From: Campylobacterota bacterium
GTDB lineage: Bacteria; Campylobacterota; Campylobacteria; Campylobacterales; Sulfurovaceae
Assembly: GCA_003646505.1 (NCBI GenBank)
Contig: QMKT01000018.1
Coordinates: 1 to 16,318 of the forward strand
Direction: 5' to 3'
DNA length: 16,318 bases
The position numbers were made by a program, and so were the translations under genes. The notes beneath the pieces were generated by a model, which was not told the origin of the DNA, made no database searches, and saw only the letters and a program-made list of their open reading frames with translations. The number at the start of each line of letters is the position of its first letter. The stretch's first letter is position 1. Of this stretch, positions 4,420 through 16,318 are shown piece by piece.

Positions 4420-4501
4420 CTAGATTAAACAGCTAAACTCATTGCGAAGTGGGGACAGAAAACCGTGGGTCTCATGCAGATTGCCAGGTTGCTAATAGTA
4501 G
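4420..4501 (+). promoter_or_regulatory. c-di-GMP-I (GEMM-I) riboswitch aptamer, copy 1
   Basis: The RNA matches the GEMM-I aptamer position by position when aligned by eye to Vc2. G4432 corresponds to G20, followed by the AAA bulge (4435-4437). The 6-bp P2 stem CTCATT/AGTGGG (4438-4443/4448-4453) is capped by a GCGA tetraloop. Then come GAC (4454-4456) and A4459 (A47). P3 opens with AACC (4461-4464) pairing GGTT (4487-4490), with TCT/AGA inside. C4492 corresponds to C92. P1 pairs ATTA (4424-4427) with TAAT (4493-4496), and CTA/TAG outside. Position 20 is G, which favours c-di-GMP over the cGAMP-selective variants that carry A. It precedes a four-gene signalling operon. The downstream expression platform is not obvious: CTCTT (4534-4538) can pair weakly with AAGGGG at the ribosome binding site. 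Ligand binding and ON/OFF sense are untested. Confidence 0.88.
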
Positions 4502-4574: not shown

Positions 4575-4988
4575 ATGAATAGACCTAGTCCAATTGATGA
4601 AGAATATGTCTTTGATAACGGTTTGATAATTAGTTCTACAGATCTTAAAGGCATTATTACGTATGCAAACCGTAAATTCTGTGAGATCTCAGGCTATGCC
4701 AAAGATGAATTACAAGGCAAGAACCATAATATTGTTAGGCATCCAGATATGCCAAAAGCAGCATTTCAAGAAGTATGGGACACTATCCAATCAGGAAAAG
4801 AGTGGACTGGTGTTGTTAAAAACTTAAGAAAAGATGGTAAATATTATTGGGTTTACTCACACATTGCACCTGTTATAAATGAAGATGAAACTGTTGGTTA
4901 TACTGCGGCAAGAAGACCTGCATCAGCCACAGAAATTGAAGAGAGCATTCCTATCTATGAAGATATGCTGTCAAAAGAAAGTAATTAA
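4575..4988 (+). CDS. stand-alone Aer/CetB-type PAS domain protein
   Basis: The 137-residue product is essentially one PAS domain (residues about 12-115). It is close in pattern to the FAD-binding PAS of E. coli Aer and the Campylobacter CetB protein. Visible features are STDLKGIITYANRKF, the signature RHPDMPKAAF (55-64), WTGVVKNLRKDGKYYWV and GYTAARRPA. Such proteins sense cellular redox or energy state through FAD and signal by contact with a partner; here the partner could be the kinase encoded downstream. FAD binding is inferred from family resemblance. I chose the ATG at 4575 (MNRPSPIDEE) because AGGGG lies 11 bp upstream. The earlier in-frame GTG at 4449 would start inside the riboswitch P2 stem and adds a non-conserved 42-residue leader. 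The next gene follows after 18 bp. Confidence 0.92.
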   Translation: MNRPSPIDEEYVFDNGLIISSTDLKGIITYANRKFCEISGYAKDELQGKNHNIVRHPDMPKAAFQEVWDTIQSGKEWTGVVKNLRKDGKYYWVYSHIAPVINEDETVGYTAARRPASATEIEESIPIYEDMLSKESN

Positions 4989-13312: not shown

Positions 13313-13999
13313 TTATGACTTCTCATAACCTACTATGTATGCATGACCAGATTCTGGTTCAATGATGATCTCTATATCACTTATATCACTTCCCGTAACA
13401 AATTTAAAAGCAATCTTGCATTCGTCCTGCATAGTAGTACTATAATCAGGACTTGTTGAGCCAAAATGCCCTTTATGTGGTCTTCCCAAATTGTCAAAAC
13501 CGATATATCTTCCATTATCTGTCCCTGCAGAACCCGTCTGTGGATTACAATTTGTGAAATCAACATCACTGATACCTTTTTTACTTATAAAAGTTCTTCG
13601 GCTCGTATCTGATGCTACACTATCAGGACCTAGACATGGATTATAAGCCCTCGTGACCATTTTTTTGCCATTACTCGCATCAATAGCCATCTCATCCGTA
13701 CCTAGGCTTCCTCCGTAATTTTTATCTGACCCGACATAATAAAAAACATTGTCATTCGTTCCACATTCTTGAAAACCTATCGTCCAAAATGCCTTTTGCC
13801 AATTAGCATTTTCCGGATTAACTACGTTATCCATCAGTGCCATATGCTGTGTAAACCTTATATCTGTCAATAACTGACCTGCCACTTCCTGCCTCACATC
13901 TCTATCTAGTCTAGGCATTGCAATGGCTGCCAATATACCTAAAACAATTATTGCCATAATAAGTTCTATCATTGTAAAAGCAGATCTTTTTTCTACCAT
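13313..13999 (-). CDS. type IV pilin-like / type II secretion prepilin
   Basis: The 228-residue product starts with a short basic leader (MVEKRSA), a prepilin peptidase site and the class III pilin helix FTMIELIMAIIVLGILAAIAMP. Cleavage would fall between Ala7 and Phe8, with the conserved Glu at mature position 5 (Glu12). The residue before the cut is Ala instead of the usual Gly; Ala is tolerated in some prepilins. The globular part contains four cysteines that could form disulfides (QECGTND, YNPCLG, TNCNPQ, DECKIA). It could be a minor pilin or a pseudopilin; no pilus motor or secretin gene is in view to decide. AAGG lies 8 bp before the ATG. It is transcribed away from the riboswitch-controlled gene, the two sharing the 294-bp intergenic region. 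Confidence 0.88.
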   Translation of the reverse strand: MVEKRSAFTMIELIMAIIVLGILAAIAMPRLDRDVRQEVAGQLLTDIRFTQHMALMDNVVNPENANWQKAFWTIGFQECGTNDNVFYYVGSDKNYGGSLGTDEMAIDASNGKKMVTRAYNPCLGPDSVASDTSRRTFISKKGISDVDFTNCNPQTGSAGTDNGRYIGFDNLGRPHKGHFGSTSPDYSTTMQDECKIAFKFVTGSDISDIEIIIEPESGHAYIVGYEKS

Positions 14000-14071: not shown

Positions 14072-14130
14072 TAAAATAAAAACACCACTATTAAAAATAC
14101 TTATTAATAGCTATTTAAGTTAAGCTGTGG

Positions 14131-14136
14131 GATAAT
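14131..14136 (+). promoter_or_regulatory. candidate -10 box (GATAAT) for riboswitch 2
   Basis: GATAAT, one mismatch from TATAAT, predicts a transcript start near 14143, a few bases before the 5' strand of P1 of the following aptamer. The -35 region is not recognisable. An alternative box at 14144-14149 (TTATAG) would start transcription inside the aptamer and is less likely. Confidence 0.4.
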
Positions 14137-14147
14137 AGTAAAATTAT

Positions 14148-14220
14148 AGTAGATAAAGCCAAATTTGTCGCGAGGCAGAGACGGAAAGCCACGGGTCTCA
14201 TTGAGACGGCTGGGCTACCT
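14148..14220 (+). promoter_or_regulatory. c-di-GMP-I (GEMM-I) riboswitch aptamer, copy 2
   Basis: G14158 corresponds to Vc2 G20 and is followed by C, C and the AAA bulge (14161-14163). The 6-bp P2 stem TTTGTC/GGCAGA (14164-14169/14174-14179) is closed by a GCGA tetraloop. GAC (14180-14182), GG, A14185 (A47) and AAGCC follow. P3 uses AGCC (14187-14190) with GGCT (14213-14216), and GTCTC (14195-14199) with GAGAC (14203-14207). C14218 corresponds to C92. The P1-closing pair G14-C93 is G14152-C14219, with exactly five nucleotides between it and G20 as in Vc2. P1 beyond two base pairs is weak. All P2 element lengths equal those of Vc2 and of copy 1. It sits directly upstream of a large secreted repeat protein, a common target class for c-di-GMP control. 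Confidence 0.88.
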
Positions 14221-14243
14221 CATGTACTCAGAGTTAAACTTAC

Positions 14244-14286
14244 TTTCTTTGTGACATAGACAGCTCAACTTCTACAAAGAAAAGGG
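14244..14286 (+). promoter_or_regulatory. hairpin abutting the ribosome binding site (probable expression platform)
   Basis: TTTCTTTGT (14244-14252) and ACAAAGAAA (14274-14282) form a perfect 9-bp stem whose 3' strand runs into the Shine-Dalgarno AAGGG (14282-14286), 7 bp before the ATG. In a shifted register TTTCTTT can pair with AAAGGGA (14281-14287) using G-T pairs, which would cover the ribosome binding site directly. No T-run follows, so translation control is more likely than termination. This is inferred from sequence only. Confidence 0.5.
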
Positions 14287-14293
14287 AATTACT

Positions 14294-16318
14294 ATGAAAC
14301 ATTCACATAACCTATTCAAAACACTATTTCATCTTTTTGCCATGATCATACTACTCTCTTCTCTGGCAAGTGCTGCAACCTATACTTTGGATAATGACAA
14401 CAACGATGCGGAAGAAAGAGCTAATGGGTCCATGTCTCTGGGCAGTAGTGATCTTGAAATGGCATATGATTCTGGTGGTAGCCCGGATAGAGGGATCCAA
14501 ATCATTGGTTTAAGATTTAATGAAGTAGATATCCCTCAAGGTGCATCTATCACAAGTGCACGAATACGTTTTAGAGCAGATGCAAATGACAATGGAGACA
14601 CTTCTCTTATAATCTCTGGTGAGTCTGTTGATGATGCTGCTTCTTTTTCTTCTGATAATTCTGAACTTTCATCCCGTCTGAACTCCAATGGTACCAATGC
14701 AGAAGTAAATTGGAATCCTTCTAGATGGGAAAATAATGAGTACTACTATACCAATGATATTAGTCCTGTTATTCAAGAGATCGTTAATCGTACAGGATAT
14801 GCAGAAGATGATCTAATAATCTTTATAAGACCTGGTGCAGGGTGTACAGATAATGAATGTAGGCGTAGGGCTGATTCTCGAAATGAAAGTAACAGTAATG
14901 CTCCCAGACTTGAAGTCGAATATACTCTTCCCCCATCATGTTCCACACTGAGAGACAGTGATGACTTTACAGATACTCATACATCATACACATCACCTGT
15001 TTATAACAATTCTAATTGGAATGTAGGGCCAGGTGCAACAGCTATGAACCGTGCATATAAATTTACTGTAGATCGTGCCGGTACAGTAGATATTGATCTT
15101 AGTAGAATTGATAGAGATATGGCTAGATTCAGTGTTAGTACCGATGGCTGTCCATTAACATTGGATGGATTAAAAACTTCACAACTCACTTTTACAGGTG
15201 CCGGTGAATTCTATGTCTATATTTATTATTTTAACAATGGCAACGGAAATACCAATATTGAGCATCAACTAGATGTTGTTTTTACACCTTCTCTAGAAGC
15301 TGATGCGAATAATGATACTTACACAACACTCATAAATACTCCTCTAAACAATAATGTATTACAAAATGATAGTGGAGTAGGCGCTTTTACGGTAACAGGT
15401 AATACCGACGTCTCTCATGGAATATTGGCAATTCAAGCTAACGGTAACTTTACGTATACTCCTTCATCTGGTTATAGTGGAATCGACAGTTTTACTTACG
15501 ATATAACTGACGCATCAAATAATACAGATACAGCAACTGTTACCATCACTATCACTAACCCAGATGCAGCGGATGCTGTAAATGACAGCTATAGTGTCTT
15601 TACAGATACTGCACTGAGTGGAAATGTGATTGGTAATGATAGTGGTACCAGTATCTCAGTCACAAGCAATACAGCTCCAGCAAACGGTACACTTACACTC
15701 ACGAGGTTTGGTGATTTTGAATATAGGTCAGCTGTAGGATTTACCGGTGAAGATAGCTTTGAGTATACTATTACGGACATAATAGGCGCTACTGATACAG
15801 CTATCGTAACCATTACTGTCTCCAATGATACAAACTATACCTCAGGTAGTGAATTTCCTTTTACCCTCATAAATCCACCATTTACCAGAAATTTAGTAGG
15901 TAATTATGCACTTGCCGGTAACACCATAATGTGTTTAACTCAAAAAACAGACGGTTATGGAGGGACATGTCAGGACAATAATGACATAAAGCTTGAAACA
16001 AGTAACAGAAGAGTAAGTAAATATATCGATATTGATGAGGTCACATCACCCTCGGAAGATGCATCTACATGGAATTCAAGCTCATCATATATTATGTTTC
16101 CTGATACCTTTGACCGAAGTAAAAGATCAAGGGTCAAATGGGCTGGTCTCTTCTGGCAAGGTCGTATCAGTACAGACAATGATCATCCTATACGCTTTGG
16201 TGTTGAAGATGGGAACTCCTATAATTTTACAAATACCGGTGAGGGATATAACTATAATCTAAATATAAACAATACTGATGCAAATAAAATTAAACTTAAA
16301 GTGGACAATGCAAATTAC
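14294..16318 (+). CDS. large secreted surface protein with Ig/cadherin-like repeats (3' end beyond window)
   Basis: An open frame of 675 codons runs off the right edge without a stop. It has a Sec signal peptide (hydrophobic core about residues 11-24; cleavage likely after ASA, residues 25-27). Residues about 28-210 form a beta-rich domain with ITSARIRFRAD and APRLEVEYTL, like DNRLRE/CBM-type jelly rolls. Residues about 212-333 form a second beta domain. Two tandem repeats of about 88 residues follow (336-421 and 424-509). Each has the NVLxNDSG, NGxFxY, GxxSFxYxITD and ATVTITI pattern of bacterial cadherin-like/VCBS-type Ig repeats. The last part (513-675) contains VKWAGLFWQGRIS, recalling an A-LYW-G motif of other bacterial surface proteins, and no repeat. 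An adhesin or matrix protein is likely; the missing C-terminus should hold the anchoring or secretion signal. Confidence 0.88.
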   Translation, partial: MKHSHNLFKTLFHLFAMIILLSSLASAATYTLDNDNNDAEERANGSMSLGSSDLEMAYDSGGSPDRGIQIIGLRFNEVDIPQGASITSARIRFRADANDNGDTSLIISGESVDDAASFSSDNSELSSRLNSNGTNAEVNWNPSRWENNEYYYTNDISPVIQEIVNRTGYAEDDLIIFIRPGAGCTDNECRRRADSRNESNSNAPRLEVEYTLPPSCSTLRDSDDFTDTHTSYTSPVYNNSNWNVGPGATAMNRAYKFTVDRAGTVDIDLSRIDRDMARFSVSTDGCPLTLDGLKTSQLTFTGAGEFYVYIYYFNNGNGNTNIEHQLDVVFTPSLEADANNDTYTTLINTPLNNNVLQNDSGVGAFTVTGNTDVSHGILAIQANGNFTYTPSSGYSGIDSFTYDITDASNNTDTATVTITITNPDAADAVNDSYSVFTDTALSGNVIGNDSGTSISVTSNTAPANGTLTLTRFGDFEYRSAVGFTGEDSFEYTITDIIGATDTAIVTITVSNDTNYTSGSEFPFTLINPPFTRNLVGNYALAGNTIMCLTQKTDGYGGTCQDNNDIKLETSNRRVSKYIDIDEVTSPSEDASTWNSSSSYIMFPDTFDRSKRSRVKWAGLFWQGRISTDNDHPIRFGVEDGNSYNFTNTGEGYNYNLNINNTDANKIKLKVDNANY

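Follow-up and report, generated by a model that had tools for sequence, protein, structure and literature searches.

A probably functional class I c-di-GMP riboswitch in the leader of a giant, putative surface protein gene of a Sulfurovum-like bacterium

Control of surface proteins by c-di-GMP riboswitches is known from several bacteria. C. difficile carries 16 c-di-GMP riboswitches, 12 of class I and 4 of class II, and adhesins are among the products controlled, according to excerpts of two papers (PMC6200980, PMC6366702). Excerpts of a third describe cbpA of B. thuringiensis as encoding a riboswitch-controlled adhesin (PMC7423583). The initial annotation of the DNA analysed here inferred a riboswitch-controlled candidate adhesin or matrix protein; going by the excerpts, control of adhesins by riboswitches had already been published for both organisms (PMC6200980, PMC6366702, PMC7423583). 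In the open-access literature we found no work on c-di-GMP riboswitches in Sulfurovum or Epsilonproteobacteria; for Campylobacterota the one paper retrieved concerns Leptospira, and the excerpted part of a study of C. jejuni leaders reports a TPP riboswitch alone and makes no mention of c-di-GMP (PMC3847290). The heavy use of c-di-GMP-I riboswitches in the Sulfurovum-like group seems to be little described.

The aptamer of the present locus resembles Vc2 of Vibrio cholerae and its family RF01051 in the three-helix architecture, the GNRA loop in P2, the bases G20, A47 and C92 and the G14-C93 pair. It differs in having C-G instead of G-C at pair 21-46 and a short P1, in the leader of about 70 nt without a terminator and in the host phylum, which is Campylobacterota. 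Like Bc2, which stands before the collagen adhesin gene cbpA in B. thuringiensis/B. cereus, it is a class I aptamer in front of a probable surface protein gene. Bc2 acts via transcription read-through as described in excerpts of PMC6366702 and PMC7423583, whereas in the window no terminator was found and the core of the encoded protein has no Pfam family. The C. difficile regulon is similar in its many riboswitches per genome, some of which precede adhesin and type IV pilus genes. Compared with the 12 class I copies given for C. difficile 630 in excerpted literature, the host has 12 RF01051 matches over the cut-off in a genome rated 80% complete, and up to 21 class I matches occur in one genome of its family (E 0.001); PAS, PilJ-type and CAP-domain proteins are among the products encoded behind the family's aptamers. 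The variant c-di-GMP-I-GGC (RF03167) gives the best covariance-model score, but its consensus G47 is missing in the window.

The window, i.e. the whole stretch of DNA that was analysed, has a length of 16,318 nt and makes up contig C18 entirely; the genome comprises 1.46 Mb in 142 contigs. Judged by protein identity, the host genome is close to Sulfurovum: its UvrC is 90% identical to that of the Sulfurovum MAG L200, and with L258, a Campylobacterota MAG, it shares 91-95% identity in the PAS, kinase, Lon and BamD products. In our view the window probably carries a class I c-di-GMP riboswitch that is functional and lies in the 5' leader of the gene for a giant surface protein. The features of the locus are listed below.

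14128..14136, + strand: candidate extended -10 promoter element TGGGATAAT, read from the sequence; weak; transcription would start near 14143
14149..14223, + strand: c-di-GMP-I (GEMM-I) riboswitch aptamer, from RF03167 and RF01051 scores, the pair list and covariation (19 + 115 distinct aptamers)
14158, + strand: G20, the ligand-selectivity position
14159-14160/14183-14184, + strand: aptamer helix P1b, from the pair list
14164-14169/14174-14179, + strand: aptamer helix P2 with GCGA loop, from the pair list
14185, + strand: A47
14187-14216, + strand: aptamer helix P3, from the pair list
14218, + strand: C92
14244..14282, + strand: hairpin UUUCUUUGU/ACAAAGAAA immediately upstream of the ribosome-binding site, a candidate expression-platform element, from folding
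14283..14287, + strand: AGGGA, Shine-Dalgarno-like, with a 6-nt spacer to the start codon
14294..16318, + strand: gene, cut off by the contig end, for a giant protein that is probably secreted, with a signal-like N terminus, Big_9/cadherin-like repeats and the start of a long conserved core

Searching the window with Rfam models at the gathering threshold gave a match to RF03167 at 14149-14223 on the + strand, scoring 63.5 bits (window-wide E 3e-13; cut-off 59 bits). RF01051 matched at 14148-14222 with 57.6 bits, above its gathering cut-off of 35 bits, which places the element in this family. None of the 14 control genomes had a match with either model. With both scores over the cut-off and the control genomes empty, the aptamer match is far above chance. 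The fold stability of the aptamer alone was not unusual (z -1.09). The covariance-model search thus bore out the full GEMM-I aptamer that the initial annotation had proposed at this site, and reading the sequence confirmed its assignment of G20, A47 and C92 as well as of the G14-C93 closing pair (G14152 and C14219), in positions that we take to follow Vc2 numbering. The closing helix P1 consists of G14152-C14219 and A14151-U14220 and is interrupted beyond these; in all it is short, with two clean pairs and one G-U. All 18 core pairs of the pair list are standard pairs. The segment 14149-14223 is a class I c-di-GMP aptamer, ordinary in kind.

The three-helix fold is supported by covariation in relatives, counted over P1b, P2 and P3, with P1 left out of both sets. 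In 19 aptamers, 12 from the host genome and 7 from relatives, 95.9% of cells pair as compared to 83.8% in shuffles; both sides change in 12 of the 18 pairs, and slid controls were 25 to 48% paired. Among 115 distinct relatives 98.9% of cells pair and both sides change in 14/18 pairs, figures that lean towards the structure because the alignment was fitted to it.

The ligand-site bases are strongly conserved. Position 47 is A in 120/120 aligned relatives, position 20 is G in all 119 that have a letter there and position 92 is C in 117 of the 120; since these relatives are the best-scoring sites, with a few duplicates included (115 distinct rows), the set is skewed towards good matches. In another alignment, with 18 rows of which L101 is a chance match (E 0.91), every row has G20, a C-G pair at 21-46 and A47, and 17 have C92. 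We take A47 to be the base that stacks between the two ligand bases, and C92 presumably pairs with one ligand guanine. Pair 21-46 of the window aptamer is C-G (14159-14184), i.e. paired but inverted relative to the G-C of the RF01051 consensus; taking pairing rather than base identity as the family feature, the window agrees with RF01051 here. Among 119 relatives the pair is C-G in 117 and G-C in 2 (L048 and L118), and in the two reverting cases both sides have changed. Weaker syntenic copies deviate at this pair, with U-G in L214 and C-A in L222.

These bases bear on which ligand the aptamer recognizes. The best-scoring model is the variant RF03167, whose 'GGC' we read as G20-G47-C92, and its 63.5 bits against a cut-off of 59 would suit a member of this variant class with a changed ligand preference. 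At position 47, however, where the RF03167 consensus has G, the window has A (A14185), as do all its aligned relatives, and RF01051 passes as well with its 57.6 bits. Because of this A the element is filed as ordinary c-di-GMP-I, and membership of the variant class is very improbable. We give equally little credence to sensing of 3',3'-cGAMP, as by the GEMM-Ib aptamers of Geobacter. The fold is the same, excerpts of PMC6274999 report that G20A turns a GEMM-I aptamer into a cGAMP binder, and position 20 is called a selectivity factor and no hard filter in the excerpted part of PMC9262584, but this position is G in the window and in every relative with a letter there. Assignment to GEMM-Ib, which was tried with A at position 20 as its mark, was rejected on G14158.

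The ATG start codon of the downstream gene is at 14294. The initial annotation was right that the aptamer precedes the start at a short distance, but its figure of about 75 bp becomes 70 nt from the aptamer end. A two-hexamer promoter scan gave none on the + strand. In 16 related leaders a TATAAT-like hexamer with 4 or 5 of 6 matching places occurs 20-31 nt before G20, with 5/6 in 10 of them; in control windows, 5 of 6 places were reached by 341/2303. The terminator scan showed no terminator-like site in the leader. With no intrinsic terminator detected, regulation probably acts on translation or through Rho. The hairpin at 14244-14282 has a z-score of -1.9, and a hairpin just before the Shine-Dalgarno sequence was predicted, by our reading, in 11 of 13 related leaders with z from +0.7 to -3.1, both against mononucleotide shuffles. 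The relatives' leaders further contain two pairings that compete for strand b, which in one of them extends P1 (a-b) and in the other forms a hairpin (b-c). In 10 such leaders the pair counts were modest, the covariation score being reached by 0/500 and 11/500 shuffles, and pairs with double changes were not above shuffles. Swapped-duplex tests gave p values of 0.026 and 0.054 for a-b and of 0.115 and 0.039 for b-c. The window leader has neither the a-b-c arrangement nor the hairpin pair common to the relatives.

In 20 loci with relatives of the giant gene, two of them (L103 and L104) cut at the 5' side by the contig border, an aptamer precedes the gene in 7. By coordinates, an aptamer also lies before family members in G063, G066 and G183, the last of which belongs to another family. 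Because many gene relatives lack an aptamer, the switch is a feature of a lineage and no fixed part of the gene. A set of 80 named loci anchored on UvrC gave 29 aptamer matches (E 0.01). In 11 of the named loci the aptamer follows bamD or a pilin gene as in the window (L200, L213, L214, L215, L220, L221, L222, L236, L244, L247 and L258); 11/80 must not be read as a frequency, as many of the loci stop short of this position. Ten of the 11 syntenic aptamers are full length and have an open, secreted-looking ORF behind them, as judged by eye and for L214, L215, L222 and L236 by secreted look alone. The remaining one, at 19507-19576 of L258, is truncated: it lacks the 3' half and has no ORF in reach of the scan, in what is the closest relative by protein identity. 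At least L200, L213, L220, L221, L244 and L247 appear to be the same contigs as loci of the family-genome set, and the two sets are not independent. Since the arrangement recurs in relatives, including the 11 syntenic loci, the control by c-di-GMP at the RNA level that the initial annotation suggested is the best reading, from which we infer ligand binding and switching in one direction or the other.

Between bamD and the riboswitch lies a divergent prepilin-type gene (13313-13999, - strand). It is found in the same place in some relatives, and in others no match was found. Through this neighbor, the giant protein may be connected with a type IV pilus-like system.

In the proposed mechanism, c-di-GMP would bind in the three-way junction formed around G20, A47 and C92 and stabilize P1. 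This would alter the fold of the roughly 70-nt leader downstream and change the access of ribosomes to the Shine-Dalgarno sequence. As to direction, we slightly favor an ON switch. In 4 of 11 predicted downstream folds, computed with the aptamer left out (L094, L096, L099 and L132), the Shine-Dalgarno sequence is base-paired to the strand that contains C92-C93 and would be released on ligand binding; in the other 7, the window's included, that strand is not paired with it. The Shine-Dalgarno sequence reads GGU in 13/15 aptamer-bearing leaders compared to 4/10 aptamer-less ones, the latter examined by eye; that of the window has GGG.

A functional riboswitch with the opposite sign, by which c-di-GMP lowers synthesis of the giant protein, is a real possibility, on balance somewhat doubtful to us. 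When the aptamer was forced in 79 leaders of relatives, a set outside the host's own copies, the Shine-Dalgarno sequence became easier to open in 7 and harder in 21 (>1 kcal/mol), and was on average 0.58 kcal/mol harder to open (Wilcoxon p 0.015, or 0.0013 with the start codon added). This trend toward OFF is not seen in nine giant-protein leaders, where the opening energy changed by -0.4 to +0.6, and in the window itself forcing the aptamer partly freed the Shine-Dalgarno sequence while the start codon was paired more tightly. The thermodynamic models thus leave the direction unsettled, with an average that leans slightly to OFF. Precedents exist for both signs. Excerpted accounts describe Vc2 as an OFF switch acting on translation (PMC9262584) and assign the OFF sign to each of the seven class I switches that function in C. 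difficile (PMC6366702), one of which precedes a calcium-binding putative adhesin (PMC6200980), but the B. thuringiensis class I switch before the CbpA adhesin is described as ON (PMC6366702, PMC7423583). It is also conceivable that the aptamer is real and the window copy is decaying, with switching lost. The weak P1 and a leader without the hairpins common to relatives would fit such decay, as would the missing 3' half in L258, and excerpts of PMC6366702 call only 11 of the 16 predicted c-di-GMP riboswitches of C. difficile 630 functional. We regard decay as unlikely, however, in view of the retained ligand-site bases, the 18 standard core pairs, the score well above the cut-off and the hairpin kept before the Shine-Dalgarno sequence.

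The gene behind the functional riboswitch that we prefer encodes a giant protein that, by its N terminus, is probably secreted. As the initial annotation had noted, this N terminus looks by eye like a signal peptide and Ig-repeat domains of the Big_9/cadherin-like type follow, within about residues 337-477 and beyond. Relatives of the gene occur in 34/175 family genomes (E 1e-20), some of these matches being confined to single domains. Where relatives look full length, the frame is mostly about 1,470-2,200 amino acids long, with variable N-terminal modules, followed by a long conserved core, 1,361 amino acids in L096, with many invariant residues in 13 sequences. Cores of about 1,360 amino acids (L094, L096 and L099) contain invariant cysteines and a C-terminal tryptophan. 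No credible Pfam family match and no PDB sequence relative were found for the core. Its predicted fold is of low confidence and loosely Ig-like, and matches to Ig-like folds are only middling. The C-terminal half was matched in 96/298 sampled Campylobacterota genomes, in many of them only in part. It was unmatched in the host's own genome, presumably because the gene is cut by the contig end. The Bap/LapF-type large adhesin model NF045619 of NCBIfam gave 54.5 bits against a cut-off of 180, on the incomplete protein. Of the candidate adhesin proposed initially, the large, probably secreted repeat protein stands; since the core has no Pfam or PDB sequence match and a low-confidence, loosely Ig-like fold, a role at the surface or in attachment is something we infer.

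The host genome probably makes and degrades c-di-GMP, as it has 25 GGDEF matches, 3 of them with internal stop codons, and 17 EAL matches. The three stop-containing GGDEF matches are on contigs C5 and C117 of this genome (G000) and are perhaps pseudogenes or assembly errors. PilZ was not found in the genome; one MshEN, a c-di-GMP-binding module, was. Action of the messenger without a protein receptor, as first suggested, therefore holds at most for this gene. Class II riboswitches gave 0 matches in the host genome and also 0/14 in control genomes, a search that had no positive control and so does not show their absence.

Across the family, riboswitch matches occur in 106/175 genomes (57/90 of those of good quality). 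PilZ was over the cut-off in 0/175 family genomes, with one sub-threshold genome, and MshEN was over it in 145/175. In a phylum sample that includes the family, 42/397 genomes have a riboswitch over the cut-off. By these matches, the class I RNA is common in Sulfurovaceae and patchy elsewhere, and it is not the sole possible c-di-GMP receptor. A simple ORF rule, which also assigns the start codons and lets one ORF serve both aptamers of a tandem, placed an ORF no more than 450 nt behind 133 of 143 distinct aptamer sites. Cut to pieces of 350 amino acids or less for the scan, 116 downstream proteins gave 10 PilJ, 10 PAS, 8 CAP, 5 LysM and 5 Big_9 matches; the window's own piece went unmatched at the scan threshold, as the Ig domains are located at or past the point of truncation.

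Other arrangements were observed in these genomes. A first aptamer in the window (4422-4496, RF01051 50.6 bits) precedes a small PAS-domain gene (4578-4988), which is followed by Hpt-like, hybrid kinase (NIT domain) and response regulator genes. An aptamer just after uvrC is also present in a number of named Sulfurovum loci. Tandem c-di-GMP-I aptamers occur in several Sulfurovaceae-like genomes (L168, L169, L174, L053, L039, L127 and L161), with two tandem pairs about 1.2 kb apart in L161. In L130, L138 and L150 the first ORF found after the aptamer is PdxJ-like, 261-278 nt off and perhaps under its control.

Taken alone this riboswitch copy is ordinary, since switches of this class, also in front of adhesin genes, were already known. 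Its setting could matter: Sulfurovum-like genomes have many class I copies and no PilZ over the cut-off, and for these reasons c-di-GMP may act largely through RNA in them. Through its giant gene, the locus further draws attention to a large and uncharacterised family of proteins in Campylobacterota. Tentatively, the c-di-GMP output of Sulfurovum might run mainly via RNA, with genomes having as many as about 21 class I riboswitches, no PilZ receptor, and surface proteins, PAS and PilJ-type sensors and lipoproteins as targets; one syntenic switch would then set the dose of a giant, pilin-adjacent surface protein whose core represents an undescribed Campylobacterota family.
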